Positions 41,298 to 58,378 of a DNA stretch of 64,000 nt are shown piece by piece (position 1 is the stretch's first letter; the number at the start of each line of letters is the position of its first letter). Source of the DNA: Aureimonas sp. AU12 (GTDB lineage Bacteria; Pseudomonadota; Alphaproteobacteria; Rhizobiales; Rhizobiaceae); the NCBI RefSeq assembly GCF_001463705.1, contig NZ_BBWH01000020.1:1-64000 (forward strand), written 5' to 3'. The notes below the pieces were generated by a model. That model was given only the letters and a program-made list of their open reading frames with translations. It had not been told where the DNA came from and searched no databases. The position numbers and the translations under genes were made by a program.

Positions 41298-41648
41298 TCA
41301 GAACATGTCGAGTTCGCCCGCATCGGATGCCCCGGCGTCGTCGCCCCCGAACAGGCGCTCGCGCAGGGCCGACAGCTGGATCCCCGACGCCAGCATCCCG
41401 CCGGGAAGGCCTGCGTTGGGGAGGCCAGCGTCGGGAAGGATGGACGAAAGACGGGCGAGGAGCGCCGCGATCTCGTCGAGATGCTGGGGCGTCGTGTCGA
41501 TCGTCTGCGCCAGCCGGACCGTGGCGGGACTGCCGTCGCCGCCCTTCACCAGCGCATGGAGGCCGCGCACCGCCTCGGCCTCGCGGGCGAGCTCCCGGGC
41601 GATGCGATCGATCAGGACGGCCAGCGTCGGCGCGGGGTTGGGGCTCAT
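41298..41648 (-). CDS. cheT: CheT-like chemotaxis protein with DxxxQ motif
   Basis: A 116-residue, mostly helical protein at the end of the che operon, directly after cheD. That is where cheT lies in Sinorhizobium meliloti, whose product has been described as a CheZ-like phosphatase with a DxxxQ motif. Here DTTPQ gives Asp51 and Gln55 inside the helix AQTIDTTPQHLDEIAALL. The last residues, GELDMF, look like the acidic/aromatic C-terminal CheY-binding peptide of E. coli CheZ. The Pro/Gly-rich linker at about 70-88 separates helix and tail. Likely role: removing phosphate from one of the two CheY proteins of this operon. Identification rests on gene order plus motif, since overall similarity was not testable. 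Confidence 0.72.
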   Translation of the reverse strand: MSPNPAPTLAVLIDRIARELAREAEAVRGLHALVKGGDGSPATVRLAQTIDTTPQHLDEIAALLARLSSILPDAGLPNAGLPGGMLASGIQLSALRERLFGGDDAGASDAGELDMF

Positions 41649-41692: not shown

Positions 41693-42217
41693 TCAGAAGA
41701 ATTCGACGTCGCCGAGATCGGCGAGCACGGGCGCCGGCGGCAGCGGCGGCTCCAGGCGGTCCATCAGGTAGATCTGCCGGGCGCGGCCTGAATGAGGCCA
41801 GAACTCGATGCGGCGCGCCGCATCACCGCCGAGGCTGCCGCCGATGAGCGGGATGTTCTCCATCGCGAGGAAGCGTTTGGCGAATTCGGCATTGCCGGCG
41901 CCGATCTCGGCCCGGCCCGCGCCGATCCGCGCGCCGCCGAAGAGCTTGGCCCGCAGCGCCTCGCGCCGCGCGCCGCGCGCCAGCACGCCGTTGACGAGCA
42001 CCTCCATCAGGTAGGCGCCGTAGCGCTCCGCCGCGCCGGCCCGGTGGCCGCCTTCGCCAGCGAGCAGGAAGTGGTTCATGCCGCCGGTGCCGGAGTTGGG
42101 GTCGAAGATGCAGGCGGCGACGCAGGATCCCAGGATCGTGGTCAGGACGACCCGCGCATCGGCTTCGATGTGCGTCTCGCCTTCCGCGACGTGGATCCTT
42201 GCGCCCGCCTGCTCCAT
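41693..42217 (-). CDS. cheD: chemoreceptor glutamine deamidase CheD
   Basis: CheD (174 residues) deamidates glutamines on chemoreceptors and in some bacteria interacts with CheY phosphatases. The catalytic Cys32 is in TILGSCVAAC, His49 in GGMNHFLLAG, and the family NAEFAKRFL segment follows. The ATG overlaps the cheY stop (ATGA). The protein ends with LADLGDVEFF, an acidic/aromatic tail beyond the core domain that resembles the tails of the CheT-like and 599-residue proteins. It is the penultimate gene of the minus-strand operon. Confidence 0.93.
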   Translation of the reverse strand: MEQAGARIHVAEGETHIEADARVVLTTILGSCVAACIFDPNSGTGGMNHFLLAGEGGHRAGAAERYGAYLMEVLVNGVLARGARREALRAKLFGGARIGAGRAEIGAGNAEFAKRFLAMENIPLIGGSLGGDAARRIEFWPHSGRARQIYLMDRLEPPLPPAPVLADLGDVEFF

Positions 42218-42609
42218 CACTGGATGTTGCCGGTGACCGCCTGGATCGCCTTCTGGAGCGCGGCGGGCTGGACGGGCTTGGGCAGGTAGTTGTTGACGCC
42301 GAGCTTCACCGCCTGCTGCAGCACCGAGCGGTCGCCCGAGCCGGTCAGGAGGATGAAGGGCGTGATGCGGGTCGCGGGGAAAGTGCGGATCGCCTGCAGG
42401 AGCTGCAGCCCGTTGAGCTTGGGCATGTTGTAGTCGGAGATGACGATATGGGCCGGGCTCGACATCATCATCTTCAGAGCCTCCTCGCCGTCCTTGGCGA
42501 AGGGAATGTTGGCAAAGCCGATCTGCTGGAGGGCATCCCGCATGAGCAGCCGGCTCGTGGTCTGGTCGTCGACGATCAGGATCTTGATCGTTTGCTTGGT
42601 GAGAGCCAT
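42217..42609 (-). CDS. cheY2: CheY-type response regulator (second of operon 1)
   Basis: A 130-residue single receiver domain. Phospho-acceptor Asp59 is in IVISDYNMPKLNG, the acidic pair is in ILIVDDQ (about 14-15), Thr in FILLTGSG and the conserved Lys in YLPKPVQ. It sits between cheB and cheD, like cheY2 of S. meliloti, which acts as the main motor-binding regulator there. The stop overlaps cheD. Confidence 0.93.
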   Translation of the reverse strand: MALTKQTIKILIVDDQTTSRLLMRDALQQIGFANIPFAKDGEEALKMMMSSPAHIVISDYNMPKLNGLQLLQAIRTFPATRITPFILLTGSGDRSVLQQAVKLGVNNYLPKPVQPAALQKAIQAVTGNIQ

Positions 42610-42626
42610 GGCGAGTGCTTTCCGGT

Positions 42627-43682
42627 TCAGGCGCCGAAGACGGCGTGTGAGATGCTTTCCAAAGCAAGTTGTTCTTCGATCGCGCCCAAGTGGAAGGCGA
42701 CCTTCGGCATGCCGTATACGAGGGAGGAGGTCTCGTTCTGCCCTATTGTCCTTCCACCACCCTTACGAATCTCCAAAGCTCCCTGCGCTCCGTCGCTGCC
42801 CATCCCCGTTAAAATGATACCGAGGGAGGCTTTTCCGAAACGTCTCGCTAGGGAATGCAGGAGGACGTCGACCGACGGGCGATGTCCGCTGACGGGCGCG
42901 GCCTCGACGAGCGAGCACATCGGCGAGGCGCCGACGACGAGGAGGTGGCGCACCCCGCCGGGCGCGAGATAGACCGTGCCGTTTTCGATCGGCATGCCGT
43001 CCTCGGCCTCGACGACGCGCACCGGCGAGGATTTGGCGAGGCGCTGGGCGAAGCCGCGCGTGAAGCCGGCCGGCAGGTGCTGGACGACGAGCGTCGGCGG
43101 ACAGCCCTCCGGCCAGTCGGCGAGGAGCGCCGTCAGCGCCTCGATGCCGCCGGTCGAAGCCCCGATGCCGATCGCCGCCGGCCGGGTGCGCGGTGCGCGG
43201 GCGGCCCGGGCCGCCGTGGGCAACCCGTCCTGCGTTGCGCGGGGGAGGGCGGCGGCGCCGTTGCGACGGGCCGATACGGCGGCGAGACCCTTGCGCGAGG
43301 CCGCAGCGAGCTTGACCGTCTCGGCCAGCGTCCCGAACGCGTCGTCGGCAGCGCGCCGGGGCTTGGCGAGGCAATCGAAGGCGCCGATCGCCAGCGCCTC
43401 AATGGCGGCCGAGGTGCCCGGCCCGGTCTGGCTGGAGACCATCACCACCGGCATCGGCCGCAGGCGCATGATCTTCTCGAGGAAGTCGAGCCCCTTCATG
43501 CCGGGCATCTCGACGTCGAGCGTCACGACGTCGGGGTCGAGCGCCTTGATCTGCTCGCGTGCCTCGAAGGCATCGCCGGCCTCGCCGACGATCTCGATGC
43601 TGCCGTCCTCGCGCAGCGCCTTGCCGATGAGAAGACGCATCGTCGGGGAATCGTCGATGATGAGGACGCGGGTCGGCGTCAT
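42627..43682 (-). CDS. cheB: CheB chemoreceptor methylesterase/glutamine deamidase (operon 1)
   Basis: 351 residues. An N-terminal receiver domain (LIIDDSPTMR, Asp56 in TLDVEMPGMKG) is joined by an Ala/Arg-rich linker (about 125-165) to the esterase domain. The esterase domain has IGASTGGIEAL with the catalytic Ser, VVQHLPAGFT with the His, and LTGMGSDGAQG with the Asp. It removes methyl groups from receptor glutamates when phosphorylated by CheA. The ATG overlaps the cheR stop by four bases. Confidence 0.95.
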   Translation of the reverse strand: MTPTRVLIIDDSPTMRLLIGKALREDGSIEIVGEAGDAFEAREQIKALDPDVVTLDVEMPGMKGLDFLEKIMRLRPMPVVMVSSQTGPGTSAAIEALAIGAFDCLAKPRRAADDAFGTLAETVKLAAASRKGLAAVSARRNGAAALPRATQDGLPTAARAARAPRTRPAAIGIGASTGGIEALTALLADWPEGCPPTLVVQHLPAGFTRGFAQRLAKSSPVRVVEAEDGMPIENGTVYLAPGGVRHLLVVGASPMCSLVEAAPVSGHRPSVDVLLHSLARRFGKASLGIILTGMGSDGAQGALEIRKGGGRTIGQNETSSLVYGMPKVAFHLGAIEEQLALESISHAVFGA

Positions 43683-50190: not shown

Positions 50191-50694
50191 GACGTCTCCG
50201 AAAGAGGGCGGCGCGGGCCGCGGGGCGTGGCGCCAGGACAAGCGCGACTTTGAGAAGGGGAGGGGGCACGTCAGGGCTTGCCGGGGACACCGACGGGCCT
50301 TGGGCGCCGACCTCGCTCTTCTAATCCTCCAACGTATAAAATTTAGTTAGACTGTCCGAACAGAAACCGGCTGCAGGCCCCGTCTCTACTGTGGGTGGCA
50401 CCCGCGTTTCTTTACGCGGCGTTCACGATGATCGAGTGCTCAAGTTGTCGGGCAACTGTCGCAATTGGGTCACAAATTGCGCCGTTGCCGGTCATCGTGC
50501 GTCAACCACCTGACTTCCGGCGCTTCCCCGCAGATGGCCAAAGGCCGGCACCACAAGGGGCGAGGCGTCATGGGCGGGGACGAAGACTTCGCGAGGCGGC
50601 CGACATCCTTAAGAGACGTCATTCTGACCTTTAACCGCAACGCAATCTGTTTGCGTCAACTTCCGCAATGATCGAAAGCGAGAGACCGAGCTTG
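50191..50694. promoter_or_regulatory. divergent promoter region of the two chemotaxis operons
   Basis: 504 bases without a convincing gene, AT-richer than the flanks. Toward operon 1 there is TATAAAATTTAGTTAG (50334-50349) next to the inverted repeat CTGTCCGAACAG (50352-50363). Toward operon 2 are two dyads: AGTTG-TCGGG-CAACT (50443-50457) and GCAATT-N8-AATTGC (50461-50480). These are plausible operators for flagellar or global regulators; none is matched to a named site. A Shine-Dalgarno-like GAGAG precedes the STAS gene. Confidence 0.45.
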
Positions 50695-50979
50695 ATGTCC
50701 TTCCCCAGCGCCCCCACCCTCGTCCTCGCCGGATCCTACGATCTGGCCGCCTGCACCGCGTTGCGGATGGAGCTGATGCAGGCGGGCGAGGCGGCCGTCG
50801 GCGGCCCCGTCCATCTCGACATGTCCGGCGTGGACAGCGGCGACATCGGCTTCGTGCAGCTTCTCCTCTCCTTCGAGGTCTCGCTCAAGGCCGCCGGCCG
50901 CGAGCTGACCGCCACCGCATCGCAGGCCGTCCGCACGCTCTTCGAGCGCTCCGGCGCCTCGCTCCCCGGTCTCGCCTGA
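50695..50979 (+). CDS. STAS-domain protein (first gene of che operon 2)
   Basis: A 94-residue single STAS domain: LVLAGSYDLAACTALRMEL, VHLDMSGVDSGDIGFVQLLLSFEVSLKAAGRELT and TLFERSGASL. The usual phosphorylatable Ser/Thr position falls in DSGDIGF. I chose ATG 50695 with GAGAG upstream; ATG 50668 is possible. It precedes cheY by 63 bases on the same strand. A STAS protein ahead of cheY/cheA is the same arrangement as in operon 1, which suggests a shared input or scaffold function. Confidence 0.82.
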   Translation: MSFPSAPTLVLAGSYDLAACTALRMELMQAGEAAVGGPVHLDMSGVDSGDIGFVQLLLSFEVSLKAAGRELTATASQAVRTLFERSGASLPGLA

Positions 50980-51042
50980 CGGCGTCGCTCCGACCCCTCC
51001 CCATCCTCCCCGAATTTTCGACTTTCCTGAAAGGTGAAGACC

Positions 51043-51411
51043 GTGAGCAAGTCCGTTCTTTGCGTCGATGACTCCGCCAGCGTGAGACAGATGGTCTCCT
51101 TCACCCTGGAGAGCGCCGGCTACACGCCTGACACCGCCGTCGACGGCGCCGATGCCATCACCAAGCTCGATCAGAACAAGTACCAGCTGATCATCACCGA
51201 CCTGAACATGCCCAATCTCGACGGCATCGGCATGATCCGCAAGGTTCGCGAGATGCCCCAGCACGCCGGCATCCCGATCGTCATGCTGACCACCGAGTCG
51301 GACGAGACGAAGAAGATGGAAGGCAAGGCCGCCGGCGCCACCGGCTGGATCGTCAAGCCCTTCGATCAGGCCAAGCTCGTGGCCGTCGTCAACAAGCTGA
51401 TCGGAGCCTGA
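51043..51411 (+). CDS. cheY: CheY-type response regulator (operon 2)
   Basis: A 122-residue receiver domain. It has Asp53 in IITDLNMPNLDG, the acidic pair in [11 protein letters not shown], Thr in VMLTTESDE and Lys in IVKPFDQ. I chose GTG 51043 (MSKSVLCVDD) because AAAGGTGA lies just upstream; an earlier GTG at 51034 adds three residues. It ends two bases before cheA. It is likely the direct phospho-target of the adjacent CheA and the probable substrate of the terminal 599-residue protein. Confidence 0.94.
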   Translation: MSKSVLCVDDSASVRQMVSFTLESAGYTPDTAVDGADAITKLDQNKYQLIITDLNMPNLDGIGMIRKVREMPQHAGIPIVMLTTESDETKKMEGKAAGATGWIVKPFDQAKLVAVVNKLIGA

Positions 51412-51413
51412 TC

Positions 51414-53462
51414 ATGATGGGCGGGGACATCATTGAGACCTTCCTCAACGAGGCGCGCGACCTTCTGGAGCAACTCGAGGCGGCCCTCCTTGACCTGGAG
51501 AAGCGCCCGACCGATCGCGAGCTCGTCAACACCACCTTCCGCGCGCTTCACACGCTGAAGGGTTCGGGCGGCATGTTCGGCCCGCCGGCGATGGCGGCCT
51601 TCGCGCACGAGCTGGAAAACGCCTTCGAGAAGGTCCGCCAGGACCACGCCCCTGTGACCCCCGCCCTCGTCTCGCTTCTCCTCCAGTCCGCCGACCAGAT
51701 CCGCAAGCTTCTCTTCGAGGCCGACGGCGATCATTCTGCCGAAAGCGAGCGGCTGGCCAAGGCGCTCGTGGCGGAAGTCGACGGCGCCCCCGTCGCCGCT
51801 GCCGCCTCGGCTCCCGTGGCCGCCGCCCCGGCCGTGCCGGTCTCGCCGCTGTCGCGCCGCTGGCGCATCGCGCTGCGCCTGGAGCGCTCGGCGCTCGCCT
51901 TCGGCACCAATCCGCTCGCCCTCATCGACGAGCTGCGCGATCTCGGCACGGTCACGCTGACCGCCGACACCTCGCTCCTGCCCCCCATTGAGGACCTCGT
52001 CCCGACCGAGCTGCACCTGGGCTGGACCATCCTTCTCGACACCGCCGCGCCGCGCTCGGCGATCGACGACGTCTTCATCTTCGTGGATGGCCCCGAGGCC
52101 GTCCGCATCGAGGAACTGGAAGACGAGGTCCCGGCCGCTGCACCCGTCGCCGCCGTTGCGCCGGCCCCGGTCGCCGCGCCCGTTGCCGCTCCTGTCGCAG
52201 CCGCCCCGGTCGCCGTGGCCAAGCCCGTTGCCGCCCCCGCCAAGCCCGCCACCGCGCCCGCCAAGGCCGAGGTGCCCGAGGCCAAGGAAGCGCGCGCCGA
52301 AGCCCATGTGCGGGTCTCCGCCTCGCGCCTCGACATGCTGCTCGACCAGGTCGGCGAACTGGTGATCGCGCAGGCCCGCCTCTCGGCGCTCGCCCGCAAC
52401 CGCCACGATCCCGTGCTCACCACGGTGGCCGAGGAGATCGAGCGCCTGTCGGCCGACCTTCGCGACTCCGCCATGGGCATGCGCATGGTGCCGATCGAGC
52501 AGCTCTTCGGCCGCTATCGCCGCGTCGTGCGCGATCTCTCCTCCGACCTCGGCAAGGAGATCGATCTCTCCTTCACCGGCGAGGAGACCGAGCTCGACAA
52601 GACCGTTCTCGACCGCCTCGGCGATCCGCTCGTCCACATCATCCGCAACTCGATCGACCACGGCATCGAGTCGGCCGAGCGCCGCGAGGCCGCCGGCAAG
52701 TCCAAGCGCGGTTCGCTGCGCCTCGGCGCCCGCCAGGCCGGAACCGAGGTGGTGATCACCATCGACGACGACGGCGCCGGCTTGAACCGCGCCCGCATCC
52801 TCGAAAAGGCGATCGCCTCCGGCATCGTCGCCGAGGGCACGGTGCCGGCCGATCGCGAGATCGACGAGCTGATCTTCCATCCCGGCCTCTCGACCGCCGC
52901 GGCGGTGTCGAACCTTTCGGGGCGCGGCGTCGGCATGGACGTCGTCAAGCGCACGATCAACGAGCTGCACGGCTCGATCGACATCGACAGCCGGCCCGGC
53001 GAGGGCACCCGCTTCACGCTGCGCCTGCCGCTGACGCTGGCGATCATCGACGGGCTGCAGGTCGCCGTCGGCGACACCCAGTGCATCCTGCCGCTGACGA
53101 GCGTCGAGGAATGCGTCGAGCTCGCCGCCGTCGAGACGCGGGCCTCGGCCGGGCGCAACTTCGTCGACATCCGCGGCACGCTGGTGCCGCTCCTGTGGAT
53201 GGACAGCGTCTTCGGCACGCCGAACCGCGGCACGATCGTGGTGGTCACCGAAAGCGAGACGGGCAAGCTCGGCGTCGTGGTCGACCAGGTGGTCGGCCAG
53301 CACCAGACGGTGATCAAGCCGCTCTCGCCGCTGCACGCGCGCACCCCCGGTCTCGTCGGCTCCACCATCCTCGGTGACGGCTCGGTCGCCCTCATCCTCG
53401 ACGTCAATCCGCTCGCACGGCACGCGGCCCAGCCGCGCCACGACACGCGCGTCGCAGCCTAA
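51414..53462 (+). CDS. cheA: CheA histidine kinase (operon 2)
   Basis: 682 residues, shorter than CheA of operon 1. P1 has His46 in RALHTLKGSGGMFG. A region at about 150-245 may be a CheY/CheB-docking P2. A Pro/Ala/Val low-complexity linker (about 245-300) follows. Then come P3 (LDMLLDQVGELVIAQARL), P4 (HIIRNSIDHGIE, IDDDGAGLNR, SGRGVGMDVV, GEGTRFTLRLPLTLAI) and P5. All catalytic motifs are intact. Its P4 resembles that of operon 1 but the linkers differ, so the two kinases probably have distinct response regulators and receptors. Confidence 0.95.
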   Translation: MMGGDIIETFLNEARDLLEQLEAALLDLEKRPTDRELVNTTFRALHTLKGSGGMFGPPAMAAFAHELENAFEKVRQDHAPVTPALVSLLLQSADQIRKLLFEADGDHSAESERLAKALVAEVDGAPVAAAASAPVAAAPAVPVSPLSRRWRIALRLERSALAFGTNPLALIDELRDLGTVTLTADTSLLPPIEDLVPTELHLGWTILLDTAAPRSAIDDVFIFVDGPEAVRIEELEDEVPAAAPVAAVAPAPVAAPVAAPVAAAPVAVAKPVAAPAKPATAPAKAEVPEAKEARAEAHVRVSASRLDMLLDQVGELVIAQARLSALARNRHDPVLTTVAEEIERLSADLRDSAMGMRMVPIEQLFGRYRRVVRDLSSDLGKEIDLSFTGEETELDKTVLDRLGDPLVHIIRNSIDHGIESAERREAAGKSKRGSLRLGARQAGTEVVITIDDDGAGLNRARILEKAIASGIVAEGTVPADREIDELIFHPGLSTAAAVSNLSGRGVGMDVVKRTINELHGSIDIDSRPGEGTRFTLRLPLTLAIIDGLQVAVGDTQCILPLTSVEECVELAAVETRASAGRNFVDIRGTLVPLLWMDSVFGTPNRGTIVVVTESETGKLGVVVDQVVGQHQTVIKPLSPLHARTPGLVGSTILGDGSVALILDVNPLARHAAQPRHDTRVAA

Positions 53463-53475
53463 AGGTCCGAACCCC

Positions 53476-53943
53476 ATGTCGCTTGCCATCGAAGTCGCCG
53501 ACACCTCGCTCCAGGACTACCTCACCGTCGCGCTCGGCGACGACCTCTTCGGTCTGAAGGTGGCGCTCGTCCACGAGGTGCTCGATCCCCCGGCGATGAC
53601 GCGCATTCCCAACGCGCCGTCCTTCGCGCCGGGTCTCATCAACGTGCGCGGCAACGTCCTGCCGCTCGTCGATCTGCGGGCCCGCTTCGGCATGGAGGGC
53701 GCCGCCGACACGCAGTCGACGCGGGTGATCGTCTCGGAGGTCTCGACCGCCGCCGGCGAGACGTTCCAGATCGCGATCAAGACCGACGCCGTCTACGAGG
53801 TCATCCACGTGCGGGCCAGCGACGTCTCGGCGGTGCCCGAATACGGCTCGCGCTGGCCGAGCCGCTACCTCGACGGCGTGGTGCGTCAGGACGACCGCTT
53901 CGTCGTCCTCCTCGACGTCGAGCGCCTGCTCGACGACGCCTGA
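53476..53943 (+). CDS. cheW: CheW adaptor (operon 2, first copy)
   Basis: A 155-residue CheW domain: DYLTVALGDDLFGLKVALVHEVLDP, TRIPNAPSFAPGLINVRGNVLPLVDLRARFG and a closing LLDVERLL. Start ATG 53476 is 13 bases after cheA; in-frame sequence upstream lies within cheA and is rejected. It is followed by a second cheW, so the kinase may couple to two classes of receptor. Confidence 0.93.
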   Translation: MSLAIEVADTSLQDYLTVALGDDLFGLKVALVHEVLDPPAMTRIPNAPSFAPGLINVRGNVLPLVDLRARFGMEGAADTQSTRVIVSEVSTAAGETFQIAIKTDAVYEVIHVRASDVSAVPEYGSRWPSRYLDGVVRQDDRFVVLLDVERLLDDA

Positions 53944-54025
53944 ACCTGACGATCGCTTCCAGCCGGCCGCCGCGCCGCCCGCGATCCCTCGACACGCCGC
54001 TGCCCGCATCCCCAGAGGACGAGAC

Positions 54026-54541
54026 ATGAGCAATCACTTCCAACCCTCCGCCGCCGTCGATGCGGACGAGGGCAACGAGATGCTGACCTTCCAGCTGGGA
54101 TCGGGCGCCTTCGCGGTGAACGTCCAGCAGGTGCGCGAGGTCCTCGACTACAAGCCGATCCAGCCGATGGCCAACGCCCCGGCCAGCCTCATCGGCATGA
54201 TCGACGTGCGCGGCGTCGGCGTCCCCGTGGTCGATCTCAAGCGCAAGCTCGCCATGCCGGCGGGCGAGGGGCGCGAGATCGGGCCGGACACCCGCATCGT
54301 GGTGCTCGAGTTCGAGGCCGCCGGCCGGCTGCACACGGTGGCGGTGATCGCCGACGCTGTGCACGAGGTGGCCGATCTCTCCGACCAGACCCTCGAGGCC
54401 GCGCCGCATGTGGGCGAGGCCTGGAACAGCGACTTCATGCAGGGGCTCGGCCGTCGCAAGGAGGCCTTCCTGACGCTCCTGCGCATCGACAGCCTCTTCC
54501 ACGGCACTGAGAGCGTCCTCTCCGGCGCACGGGCGGCCTGA
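54026..54541 (+). CDS. cheW: CheW adaptor (operon 2, second copy)
   Basis: A 171-residue CheW domain: LTFQLGSGAFAVNVQQVREVLDYKPI, NAPASLIGMIDVRGVGVPVVDLKRKLAM and a closing FLTLLRIDSLF. It differs from the first copy throughout, so it is not a recent duplicate. A GAGGACGAGAC site precedes the ATG. It starts 82 bases after the first cheW and ends 4 bases before cheR. Confidence 0.93.
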   Translation: MSNHFQPSAAVDADEGNEMLTFQLGSGAFAVNVQQVREVLDYKPIQPMANAPASLIGMIDVRGVGVPVVDLKRKLAMPAGEGREIGPDTRIVVLEFEAAGRLHTVAVIADAVHEVADLSDQTLEAAPHVGEAWNSDFMQGLGRRKEAFLTLLRIDSLFHGTESVLSGARAA

Positions 54542-54545
54542 CCCC

Positions 54546-55445
54546 ATGTCCTCGGCATCCGCATCCCTCAAGGTTCCCCTCGATCCTGCCGCGGACGCCA
54601 TTCCCCAGTGGACCCGTGTCGAGCTGTCCGACAAGACCTTCGAGGTCCTCGTCAAGCTCGTCTACGACAATTGCGGCGTGTCGCTCTCGCGCGTGAAGAA
54701 GACCATGCTGGAGACGCGCCTGCGCCGCCGGCTCCAGGCCACCGGCCTCGGCGACTTCGAGAGCTACGTGCGCCTCCTGCAGACGCCGGCGGGCAAGACG
54801 AGCGAGTTGCAGTCCTTCGTCGACACCGTGGTGACGAACGAGACCTCGTTCTTTCGCGAACGCGCCCATTTCGACTATCTGACCCCCGCCGAGGTGCAGC
54901 GCCTCGTCGAGAACGGCGACGGGCGCTCGCTGCGCGCCTGGAGCGCGGCCTGCTCGTCGGGCCAGGAAGTCTACACGCTCGCCATGGTGCTGGAGGCCGC
55001 CATCTCGCAGCCCCGGCTGTGGGACTGGCAGATCCTCGCCACCGACATTTCCGTCAAGATCCTGACCGCCGCGCGCGAGGCGATCTACCGCGCCGAGGAC
55101 GTCGTGCCCGTGCCGCAGGCGCTTCAGGAGCGCTTCATACTGCGCTCGCGCGACCGGGCCAGCGAAGCCGTGCGCATCGCGCCGGAACTGCGCCAGCGCG
55201 TCACGTTCGGCCAGATCAACCTGATGCATTCCGAGTACCGCGTGAAGTCGAAGATGGACATCATCTTCCTGCGCAACGTGCTCATCTACTTCGAGCCGCA
55301 GGTGCAGCACGACGTGGTGGCCAAGCTCTGCCGCCACCTCAGGCCCGGCGGTCTCCTCATCCTCGGACATTCCGACACGACCCGCTCGGGGCGGCTGCCG
55401 CTGCGCCTCATCCGCGGGAACATCTACGAACGGCTGGAGGATTGA
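54546..55445 (+). CDS. cheR: CheR methyltransferase (operon 2)
   Basis: 299 residues. The N-terminal domain contains [16 protein letters not shown] and [19 protein letters not shown] (NxTxFFR). The SAM domain has [40 protein letters not shown] and LILGHSDT. All catalytic features of chemoreceptor methyltransferases are present, which is notable because the operon encodes no ordinary receptor. It could methylate a receptor encoded elsewhere or the receptor-like segment of the 599-residue protein. Confidence 0.94.
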
Positions 55446-55450
55446 CCGCC

Positions 55451-56572
55451 ATGAAGCCCATTCGCGTGCTGATCGTGGACGATAGCGCCAGCGTCCGTCA
55501 GGTCCTGTCGGAGATCGTCAATGCCGAGGCGGACATGGAGGTCTTCGCCACCGCCTCCAACCCCTATTTCGCCGCCGAGCGCCTGCGCGAGGAGATCCCC
55601 GACGTCATCATCTGCGACATCGAGATGCCCCGCATGGACGGCATCACCTTCGTCCAGAAGCTGATGAGCCAGCGGCCGATCCCGGTGGTGATCTGCTCCT
55701 CGCTCGCCGAGGCCGGCTCGAAGATGGCGCTGCAGGCGCTGGAAGCGGGCGCCGTCGAGATCATCGCCAAGCCCAAGGTCGGAACGCCCCAGTTCCTCAT
55801 GGAGGCGCGCACCCGCATCTGCGACGCCGTGCGCGCGGCCTCGCAGGCCAGCGTTCGCGTTCGCCGGCCCCGCGCCGGGGGCGAGGGCGCCAACTCGCCG
55901 CAGGAGAAGCTCACCGCAGACGCGGTTCTCCCGCCCTCGAACGGGCGCCCGATCGACCGCACCACCGACAAGGTCGTGGTGATCGGCGCCTCCACCGGCG
56001 GCACCGAGGCGCTGCGCCGCATCCTCGAACCGCTGCCCGTCGATTGCCCGGGCATCGCCATCGTCCAGCACATGCCCGCCGGCTTCACCACCGCCTTCGC
56101 CAAGCGTCTCGACGGCCTCTGCCGCATCGAGGTGCGCGAGGCCGTGACCGGCGACCGCCTGATGCCGGGCCTCGCCCTCATCGCGCCGGGCAACCATCAC
56201 CTCCTGCTGCAGCGCTCGGGCGCGCAGTATCACGTCGAGGTGCGCGACGGGCCGCTCGTCACCCGCCATCGCCCGTCGGTCGACGTCCTGTTCCGCTCCG
56301 CCGCCCGATCGGCCGGCGCCAACGCGCTCGGCATCATCATGACCGGGATGGGCGACGACGGCGCCAAGGGCATGCTGGAACTGCGCCAGACCGGTGCTCA
56401 CACGATCGGCCAGGACGAGGCGACCTGCATCGTCTACGGCATGCCGAAGGAAGCGATGAAGGCCGGCGCCGTGGAATACGAGATGGCGCTCGACCGCATC
56501 CCCGCCGAGATCGTCCGCTTCGCCCACGATCAGTTCCCCAAGACGGCGCCGCGCGCCGCGCAAGCCCGGTAA
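55451..56572 (+). CDS. cheB: CheB methylesterase (operon 2)
   Basis: 373 residues. The receiver domain has [11 protein letters not shown] and Asp56 in [11 protein letters not shown]. The linker is about 125-175. The esterase domain has [25 protein letters not shown] and [12 protein letters not shown], completing the Ser-His-Asp triad. It starts five bases after cheR. With CheR it provides a complete adaptation pair for this operon. Confidence 0.95.
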
Positions 56573-56578
56573 TCTCCG

Positions 56579-58378
56579 ATGATGCTCGCTCCCAACAAGC
56601 CGCACGCCCCATCCGGCAACCAGGCCACCGCTTTCGACGCGCTGCGCGCGACGCTCGAACGCATCCACCAGTGGAACGTCTCGTCCGAGGCGGTGTACCT
56701 GGGCGCCGGCGAGGATCTGCAGCTCCTGCACCGGCGCATCGGCACCGTGCGCGACTGCATCCGCCAGTCCACCGAGGCGGTGAGTTCGCCCGAGGCCGAC
56801 CGCGTCGAGACGCTGCTCGGCACCGCCGCGACCTCGGCCGCCGCGCTGGAGACGCTGGCGATCGAGCGCTCGAACGTCCTGCGCACGCTCGCTGACGGCG
56901 TCGCGACCGCGGCCACCGGCTCCACCGCCGTGGCGCTCGTCTTCCGCCTTCTCGACTATGTCGTGCTCGTCGCGCGCACCCATGTCGAGGGCATGACGCA
57001 GGCGCGCGACGTGCTCGTGCCCTTCACCCAGCATGTCCATGAACTCGTCGGTTCCGGCCAGGGCGTGGCGCGCGCTCTCGACGAGCGGGTGCGGCTTCTG
57101 GCCGGCCATATCGGCGAGAGCCGGGCGATCGACGCGCGCGTCGGCGCCAAGGCGATGCTCGGCGAGCCGAGCCTGGCCTTCCAGTTCCGCACGCTGATCC
57201 GGCGGCTGGCGCAGGAGCGCGACGGCGTCGCGATGACCCGCGCCGAGGCGCATCGCTCCTTCTCCACCATCCGCGAGGCCGTCGGCGGCCTCGTCATGGG
57301 CCTGCAGTTCCACGACATCGCCCGCCAGCGCCTCGAACACACGCTCGGCAACCTGGAGCGCCTGTTCCTTCTCGCCGAGACCGGCCGGCTCGCCCATGAC
57401 GGCGCGCCGCTGGAGGGCACCGCGCGCAATCTGGCGCTGCGCCGCATCGTGGAACTGGAGATCGCGCAGATCGAGAGCCTGACCGAGCTCTACGAGACGA
57501 AGATGGGCGATCTCCACGGCAATCTCGAGATCCTCGCCGGCGAGATCGCGGCGAGCGATCGGATCCTCGGCACGCTCTTCTCCGAGGACGGCGACGGCGC
57601 CGGCAAGAGCGCCATCGCGGTGCTCGAATCAGAAGCGGTGCGGGTGCGCGCCCGCTTTGCCCGCGGCGAGGCCGACCGCCGCCATCTCGACGCCTCGCTG
57701 CACGAATGCGTCGAGGCCGCCGGCCCGCTCATCGCCATGACCGACGAGCTCGCCGCGCTCGAGCACACGCTGCGCCTCGCCGGCTTCAACGCCGCCGTGC
57801 GCGCCGCCCATGTCGACTCGGGCGACGAGACGATCGGCTACATCGCCCGCGAAATCCGCGAGCAGGCCTCCGTCGCCAAGGCGCAGGCCGATCTCGTTCG
57901 CGAGGGCATCGAGGTCTCGGTCGCCGCGACGCGCGATCTCGAAACCGCCATCCTGCCGCAGATCGCCTCGGCCGAGGGCGAGATCTCCGCCCAGTTCGCC
58001 GAAGCCACCGCGATCCTCGGGCGCATCGACGCCGAATGCCTCGACAAGCTGCGCGAGGCCTCGACCAACGCAAGGGGCCTCGGCGCCAAGATCGAGATGA
58101 TCTCGGGCCTGATGACCCCGCATGTCGAGGGCTGCGCGCTGATGCGCCAGACCGTCCACATCCTGCGCCATCTCCTCGCCGACCTGCCGGACGAGGTGGT
58201 CTCGGCCGAGGAGGGGCTGAAGCTCTACAGCCTGCTCGCCGCGCAATACACGATGGCCGAGGAGCGGGCGATCTTCGAGGCCTCGTTCCGCGCCATGGGT
58301 CTCGTCGCCCTGCCGTCCGCCGTCGCCAACGTCGCGGCCCCGCCGCCGGTCGACGACGTCGACGACTTCCTGTTCTGA
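56579..58378 (+). CDS. 599-residue soluble chemotaxis protein with CheZ-like DxxxQ motif and receptor-tip-like segment
   Basis: This helical protein has no signal peptide or convincing membrane span and starts six bases after cheB. GLQFHDIARQRLEH (241-254) has Asp246 and Gln250 in the DxxxQ spacing of the CheZ active site (DFQDLTGQ in E. coli). LRLAGFNAAVRAAHVDSG...YIAREIREQA (398-430) resembles the chemoreceptor signalling tip, but with changed glycines and charges. The C-terminus, after a Pro-rich linker, is VDDVDDFLF (591-599), like the CheY-binding peptide that ends CheZ. I infer a CheY-P phosphatase or signal terminator that may dock with the receptor/kinase array. No established name is known to me. 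Its place as the last gene of an otherwise receptor-less che operon supports the idea. Confidence 0.75.
   Translation: MMLAPNKPHAPSGNQATAFDALRATLERIHQWNVSSEAVYLGAGEDLQLLHRRIGTVRDCIRQSTEAVSSPEADRVETLLGTAATSAAALETLAIERSNVLRTLADGVATAATGSTAVALVFRLLDYVVLVARTHVEGMTQARDVLVPFTQHVHELVGSGQGVARALDERVRLLAGHIGESRAIDARVGAKAMLGEPSLAFQFRTLIRRLAQERDGVAMTRAEAHRSFSTIREAVGGLVMGLQFHDIARQRLEHTLGNLERLFLLAETGRLAHDGAPLEGTARNLALRRIVELEIAQIESLTELYETKMGDLHGNLEILAGEIAASDRILGTLFSEDGDGAGKSAIAVLESEAVRVRARFARGEADRRHLDASLHECVEAAGPLIAMTDELAALEHTLRLAGFNAAVRAAHVDSGDETIGYIAREIREQASVAKAQADLVREGIEVSVAATRDLETAILPQIASAEGEISAQFAEATAILGRIDAECLDKLREASTNARGLGAKIEMISGLMTPHVEGCALMRQTVHILRHLLADLPDEVVSAEEGLKLYSLLAAQYTMAEERAIFEASFRAMGLVALPSAVANVAAPPPVDDVDDFLF

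Follow-up and report, generated by a model that had tools for sequence, protein, structure and literature searches.

A tandem-duplicated receptor-hairpin protein with a CheZ-type DxxxQ motif, a candidate CheY-P phosphatase of an Aureimonas chemosensory operon

A chemosensory operon and its last gene

The window analysed here, a 64,000-nucleotide stretch of the Aureimonas sp. AU12 genome, holds two clusters of chemotaxis genes. One of them runs on the forward strand in the order STAS, CheY, CheA, CheW, CheW, CheR and CheB, and its last gene, which starts with ATG six bases after the end of CheB, encodes a protein of 599 residues (Table 1). The other is a divergent cluster at 41.3–50.2 kb comprising an MCP, CheY, CheA, CheW, CheR, CheB, a second CheY, CheD and a 116-aa open reading frame (ORF); its genes were assigned by reading, and the MCP and CheD were confirmed by search. 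The forward operon has no MCP gene between its cheW genes (53943–54026), so that no conventional receptor is seen in it. A search of the genome returned no match to CheZ and none to CheX.

Table 1. Coordinates of the operon genes and of the features of the 599-residue protein, in window positions
Feature	Position	Strand	Evidence
STAS-domain protein, first gene of the second chemosensory operon	50668..50979	+	PF13466 43.5 bits, cut-off 29.2
CheY of the operon, proposed substrate	51034..51411	+	PF00072 95.2 bits; TDLNMP and LTTE
CheA kinase of the operon	51414..53462	+	Hpt, H-kinase_dim, HATPase_c and CheW domains over cut-offs
CheW, first copy, start taken at MSLAIEVAD	53476..53943	+	NCBIfam CheW model NF007903, 77.6 bits, below cut-off
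CheW, second copy	54026..54541	+	NF007903 66.9 bits, below cut-off
CheR methyltransferase	54546..55445	+	By reading; CheR probe matches here in relatives
CheB methylesterase, directly upstream of the ORF	55451..56572	+	By reading; CheB probe, 12/12 relatives
Tandem-duplicated receptor hairpin and DxxxQ module protein, proposed array-resident CheY-P phosphatase	56579..58378	+	Conservation, models, profile comparison
Hairpin 1, residues 71–188, chemoreceptor-like fold, degenerate tip	56789..57142	+	Two models, Foldseek
Helix 199–268 with DxxxQ motif	57173..57382	+	Two models
Conserved block LQxxDxxRQRxEH, residues 242–254, proposed active site	57302..57340	+	Invariant columns
D246 codon	57314..57316	+	Proposed active-site residue
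Q250 codon	57326..57328	+	Proposed active-site residue
Hairpin 2, residues 345–498, tip-like segment about 392–430	57611..58072	+	Model, profile alignment
YTMAEER motif, residues 557–563; also in single-hairpin relatives, e.g. L036	58247..58267	+	Invariant columns
Acidic/hydrophobic C-terminal tail VDDVDDFLF, proposed CheY-docking peptide	58349..58375	+	Tail comparison; pLDDT <50 at 581–599

A whole-protein search found the 599-residue protein once in its own genome; homologues are present in 13 of 21 genomes of the genus, counting this one, and in a single genome among 20 others. Thirteen Aureimonas loci and one from Aurantimonas make up the named relatives. Across the taxonomic class, a profile search matched 9 of 289 genomes, again counting its own, and the DxxxQ motif is present in seven of nine matches from outside that genome; L035 and L038, ordinary MCPs that lack the motif and matched over hairpin 2 alone, were left out. 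Whole-protein similarity to the protein of locus L088 yielded 11 plasmid homologues, with the motif in all seven that were fetched and with hosts in Methylosinus, Sphingomonas, Azospirillum, Novosphingobium, Shinella, Agrobacterium and Rhizobium; a match on a Pseudomonas plasmid is a single-module relative (see below) that has kept the motif. Double-hairpin examples are annotated as hypothetical protein or chemotaxis protein, and a scan of Viral_contigs contained no relative. The breadth of the single-module class and the plasmid homologues rule out a one-off fusion that arose in the AU12 genome.

The gene directly follows cheB in all 12 relatives whose neighbourhood was counted (12 of the 14 named-relative loci; L025 and L029 were left out). 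Among 20 wider loci, 16 place the DxxxQ gene within a che cluster, frequently in the order cheY-cheA-cheW-mcp-cheW-cheR-cheB-DxxxQ or DxxxQ-cheY-(STAS)-cheA, and four (L109, L110, L115 and L118) place it outside such clusters within the stretch read; at L113, L120, L121 and L122 it adjoins cheY. Of 13 loci, seven have an MCP gene between the cheW pair and six (the window, L016–L019 and L021) do not. Among the Aureimonas genomes, all 13 with the gene also encode the operon's type of CheA (identity of 50% or more), against none of the eight without it. Two further genomes carry this CheA type: G029 has a homologue, and in G023 the 19.5 kb read holds no DxxxQ gene and a parA-like gene follows cheB. 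At 31 such loci, every CheY retains the DxN of E. coli CheY (residue 59) and all 29 that were readable there retain its TxE (residue 89); this retention is compatible with CheZ-type chemistry, for which it is not specific.

Conserved residues and predicted fold

No Pfam family (CheZ, PF04344, and MCPsignal included) and no NCBIfam family matches the 599-residue protein at E up to 10, and a sequence search of the PDB gave no match. On reading, the sequence bears the features that a preliminary description had picked out: QFHDIARQ, with Asp and Gln at residues 246 and 250 in DxxxQ spacing; a degenerate stretch resembling the chemoreceptor tip, placed there at residues 398–430 and read here at 392–430 (AALEHTLRLAGFNAAVRAAHVDSGDETIGYIAREIREQA); the C-terminal end VDDVDDFLF; and no clear membrane span, the best 19-residue Kyte–Doolittle mean being 1.75 (residues 114–132). 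Both structural models described below put this hydrophobic peak inside a hairpin 1 helix.

A DxxxQ match was dropped as evidence by itself, as 63% of shuffles have at least one (mean 0.94 per shuffle) and the protein holds two, at D59 and D246. We judge the motif to be beyond chance because D246 and Q250 are conserved, not because DxxxQ is present: D59/Q63 is not conserved among relatives, and D246/Q250 is invariant in 13 of 13 sequences and then in 18 of 18. The larger set comprises 15 close sequences, the window's included, together with L014, L031 and L032; searches with the whole protein or a whole profile supplied 15 of the 18, and L020, L022 and L023 were found only by a scan with two seed patterns, one of which has D246 but not Q250. 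Eight of the 28 invariant columns among these 18 sequences fall within residues 242–254 (L242, Q243, D246, R249, Q250, R251, E253 and H254) and five within YTMxxER at 557–563 (Y557, T558, M559, E562 and R563); N404, in the tip-like segment, is also invariant.

An AlphaFold2 model of the whole protein, built from 14 sequences (mean pLDDT 83.1, pTM 0.62), has helices at 71–137/143–188, 199–268 and 345–410/417–498, that is, two hairpins with the DxxxQ helix between them. Residues 1–275 modelled alone reached a pLDDT of 85.8 and a pTM of 0.50, and D246 and Q250 lie on the long helix 199–268 in both models. The first 11 PDB matches of this shorter model in Foldseek are chemoreceptor cytoplasmic domains (2ch7, 3zx6, 3g6b, 9a69, 3g67 and 1qu7 among them; TM to 0.70 by target length), with an Smc coiled coil at rank 12, and the long hairpin predicted for residues 1–275 is of the kind that makes up such domains. 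The full-length model retrieves mostly generic long-helix proteins, receptors among them, and no CheZ structure is present among the 50 matches listed for either model. The preliminary description had a single tip-like segment, which stands, and had missed the presence of two receptor-like hairpins, one on either side of the DxxxQ helix. With the MCP signalling domain (PF00015) the protein shares the predicted hairpin fold, and its homologue L032 is narrowly over the MCPsignal cut-off (35.4 versus 34.6 bits), but the 599-residue protein has no Pfam match.

A single-module class, its duplication and CheZ

Run against 398 genomes of the phylum with an E limit of 1e-4, a search profile made from the DxxxQ-to-C-terminus region of five alphaproteobacterial MCP-like proteins finds matches in 67 and leads to a single-module class with one receptor hairpin. 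Thirty of the matching loci were examined (L074–L103); a pattern finds the DxxxQ motif in 29 and the thirtieth, L091, reads MQFDDITAQ, a frequency that is not independent evidence because the profile was itself built from motif-bearing proteins. Open frames measure 331–443 aa in 16 of the 18 single-module members taken from these loci; the profile sets exclude L079 and L082 (which resemble L078), L091 and the 73-aa fragment L095. The block reads, for example, LQFQDRxxQRLxx, the tails end in forms such as DDDNIELF or NDITFF, and annotated examples are named methyl-accepting chemotaxis protein. MCPsignal matches 29 of 36 class members scanned with Pfam; CheZ appears at E up to 1 in six of the 36 (best 8.2e-4, below the family cut-off), in a scan in which coiled-coil noise brings up DUF948 in nine. 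Among seven proteins compared with NCBIfam, receptor models stay below their cut-offs and CheZ models match L089 weakly (E 0.03 and 0.057).

Other architectures occur at some of these loci. L087, L097, L098 and L100 have open frames of 163–260 aa with the same DxxxQ block and an IELF/VDLF-type tail, no receptor tip pattern and no Pfam family over its cut-off; at 71.5% against CheZ in profile comparison, these small proteins are possibly stand-alone CheZ relatives. L091, L099 and L101 encode DxxxQ proteins of 582–593 aa with IELF tails; for L099 and L101, MCPsignal gave nothing at E up to 0.1 and the stretch read holds no che cluster.

The profile of the 599-residue protein and its close relatives (hereafter this clade) taken together with the distant double-hairpin proteins aligns twice to the single module, over residues 22–268 (98.7%, E 2e-16) and 286–572 (98.7%, E 1.6e-16). 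This clade alone aligns over 294–598 (97.5%) and 150–270 (96.1%), the latter match covering the part of copy 1 after the tip. Copy 1 retains DxxxQ, and copy 2, which has a gap at that block, retains the tip-like stretch, the YTM motif and the tail. In a profile self-comparison the repeat is weak, at about 22–23% copy-to-copy and 53% at best in another register. The alignments support reading the 599-residue protein as a tandem duplicate of a single receptor-hairpin/DxxxQ/tail module, and the modelled structure supports a chemoreceptor-like fold for copy 1. The combination of motif and receptor-like segment that the preliminary description had reported is real, and the interpretation given there was partly right and too narrow: instead of a hybrid that stands alone, the protein is the doubled kin of a class of probable receptor–phosphatases.

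The active site of CheZ consists of Asp143 and Gln147, and its C-terminal peptide binds CheY. We compared profiles of 85-residue windows centred on the motif, a centring that masked and sliding controls offset in part. In these windows, this clade matches the single-module class at 97.4% (E 1.4e-11), and the single-module class matches CheZ at 93.7% (E 2e-7) with the D and Q in register. The distant double-hairpin proteins reach 62.5% against CheZ and, pooled with this clade, 62.2%; this clade's own window is not significant (1.4%, E 0.037). Full-length double-hairpin profiles against full CheZ give 10.1%, or 8.7% with this clade, and their best alignment lies at the motif. When the D and Q were masked, the single-module class retained 68.8% against CheZ, the small proteins 15.8%, the distant doubles 13.7% and this clade 0.1%. 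In windows slid along the same single-module proteins, all 14 motif-free windows scored at most 11.5% against CheZ and all six that hold the motif scored 66–94%.

By these comparisons, a relation to CheZ is well supported for the single-module class, and that of the 599-residue protein would be transitive, through this class; the CheZ-like site of the preliminary description finds profile support in the class (93.7%) and not in the protein's own window. We do not claim membership of the CheZ family, to which the protein has no Pfam match. Like CheZ, it carries conserved Asp and Gln residues at DxxxQ spacing on a long helix and ends in an acidic–hydrophobic tail; DDxDDxLF-type tails resemble by eye the DDIDALF tails of CheZ, and five of the nine CheZ proteins used end in QDDIDALF plus one residue. 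It differs in its length (599 aa, versus frames of 214–331 aa in eight of those nine and 686 in one), in its receptor hairpins, in the lack of a Gly before the catalytic Gln and in a Gln at −3.

CheT of Sinorhizobium and relatives is another Rhizobiales DxxxQ protein, and a review describes it as acting on CheY-P (PMC12654446). Profiles lend no support to a relation with CheT: 14 ORFs at the cheT position reach at most 2.6% pairwise against this family and 5.9% with all sets pooled, and their profile connects neither to CheZ (0.3%) nor to the 599-residue protein (2.6%), which moreover is not small and belongs to an operon other than that with the cheD–cheT position. The ORF of the window at that position (116 aa, after CheD, 41298–41648 on the reverse strand) contains AQTIDTTPQ, itself a DxxxQ, and ends in GELDMF; its counterparts in other Aureimonas genomes read AQSHDLLSQ.

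Proposed function and alternatives

The single-module class resembles in its gene positions, after cheB or before cheY-STAS-cheA, the McpA-like proteins of F7 systems (McpA/CttP PA0180, VCA1088 and SO_2117) and VC1394 (PMC7184735, PMC7534058), the last encoded with the F9 cluster of V. cholerae (PMC7534058), and shares with the McpA-like proteins a receptor hairpin and a conserved, non-pentapeptide C terminus (PMC7184735). By gene order and tail type rather than by sequence comparison, the class would include the named McpA proteins. Ortega et al. describe the McpA-like C terminus as strikingly conserved, with a role that is important yet unclear, and genomes with stage 1 or 2 F7 systems have cheZ only in the F6 cluster (PMC7184735). 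The 599-residue protein has the che-cluster position of these proteins but differs in its second hairpin, its degenerate tip and the lack of any evident transmembrane segment, and it is probably derived from the McpA-like class rather than an ordinary member.

The view that McpA-like proteins can sit in arrays is supported: S. oneidensis McpA-GFP forms polar clusters with CheA3, with which McpA is also found in complexes (PMC9855816). A role confined to their own cluster is disfavoured: S. oneidensis McpA does not cluster with CheA1 of its own cluster, its overproduction raises swimming, as does that of three other MCPs, and its deletion has no effect on swimming (PMC9855816), and F7 arrays form without McpA-like proteins, which are dispensable for them and reportedly associate with the F6 array (PMC7184735).

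We propose, with a probability of roughly 0.62, that the 599-residue protein is a soluble, array-resident CheY-P phosphatase, a single-chain pseudo-dimer derived from McpA-like receptors. The proposal builds on the duplication, the receptor-like fold, the conservation of the motif, the remote CheZ relation of the module and the operon linkage, each supported by computation. The ancestor would have been a single module of McpA-like receptors, with a receptor hairpin, a helix bearing a CheZ-type DxxxQ and a C-terminal CheY-docking peptide. Tandem duplication would have joined two copies of it, whose hairpins we infer to pair as a pseudo-dimer in one chain, and the labour would have been split between them, the catalytic helix falling to copy 1 and the receptor-tip-like segment and the tail to copy 2. 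Placed by its hairpins in the array that the operon's own CheA and CheW form, the protein would catch CheY-P with its flexible tail, which in relatives reads DDIDDLLF and can be set beside the QDDIDALFS of CheZ from Alphaproteobacteria. D246 and Q250 would accelerate the hydrolysis of CheY-P in the manner of the CheZ Asp and Gln and so terminate signalling, in a system for which the search gave no cheZ.

We see an even chance that this extends further, to a general reading in which McpA-like and VC1394-like "chemoreceptors" in cheZ-less clusters of the F7/F9 kind are receptor–phosphatase hybrids that end their own CheY signal within the array, doubled in Alphaproteobacteria such as Aureimonas into a single-chain dimer with a catalytic half and an array/docking half. 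A CheZ-type site in the McpA-like C terminus would give a testable answer to both the unclear role of that terminus and the missing cheZ, and suggests that a widespread group of receptor-like proteins of hitherto unclear function carries its own off switch. If true, a component of the array with the shape of a receptor would itself end the signal, many proteins now labelled methyl-accepting chemotaxis proteins would be read differently, and Aureimonas would offer a natural receptor dimer in one chain. The openly accessible literature searched, PMC7184735 and PMC7534058 included, proposes no CheZ-like site in McpA-like receptors, and such a site in a receptor-shaped protein is likely, although not certainly, new. 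DosM, from cluster I of V. cholerae, also has two receptor signalling modules in one chain and belongs to cytoplasmic arrays (PMC7534058; double-domain from a title cited in PMC11940527), but it spans two baseplates, and the accessible parts of these sources mention no DxxxQ site in it (PMC7534058, PMC11940527).

An alternative account makes the protein a degenerate chemoreceptor or array scaffold without phosphatase activity, whose 242–254 block and tail would have a structural role or act as adaptors for CheB, CheR or CheD. The receptor-like fold of copy 1 would suit such a role, a receptor substitute could be needed at the six of 13 loci with no MCP between the cheW genes, and McpA-like proteins are reported to act as receptors with the flagellar array (PMC9855816, PMC7184735). 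We nevertheless regard it as unlikely: conservation is densest in the Q..D...QR.EH block and not in the tip, the single-module block aligns to CheZ with its D and Q in register, and DDFLF does not have the aromatic residue that the CheR tether has at its second position, which also rules the tail out as a CheR-tether pentapeptide (PMC7184735).

A DxxxQ phosphatase could instead serve another phospho-protein, either CheB-P, next to whose gene it is encoded in all 12 relatives counted, or a CheY from outside the operon, such as one of the two further CheY-like ORFs in the divergent cluster of the window. We doubt this strongly, as the presence of the gene tracks the operon's own CheA type (13/13 against 0/8) and the DxxxQ gene adjoins cheY at the four loci named above. 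That the CheZ resemblance of DxxxQ is a coincidental likeness of two coiled-coil helices is very improbable: coiled coils do produce spurious Pfam matches, and the comparisons of this clade and of full-length double-hairpin proteins with CheZ are not significant, but only motif-holding windows of the same proteins score and the class keeps its match with the D and Q masked.

Several further observations concern neighbouring genes and tails. ParA-like genes follow cheB in two such clusters (L125, by eye, and L131, the latter in Agrobacterium leguminum with its gene placed between cheB and the DxxxQ gene); they may perhaps serve the partitioning of cytoplasmic arrays. FliM carries an N-terminal CheY peptide with an LSQxEIDALL-type motif; a FliM-like ORF elsewhere in the AU12 genome (L124, contig C36) has by eye no such peptide and ends in EEFIDDILAD. 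The CheD frames of the window (41693–42667, reverse strand) and of L055–L071 have tails such as GDLELF or GDVEFF, which resemble those of the DxxxQ proteins and of the cheT-position ORFs, and this common tail is possibly a docking peptide for one partner.
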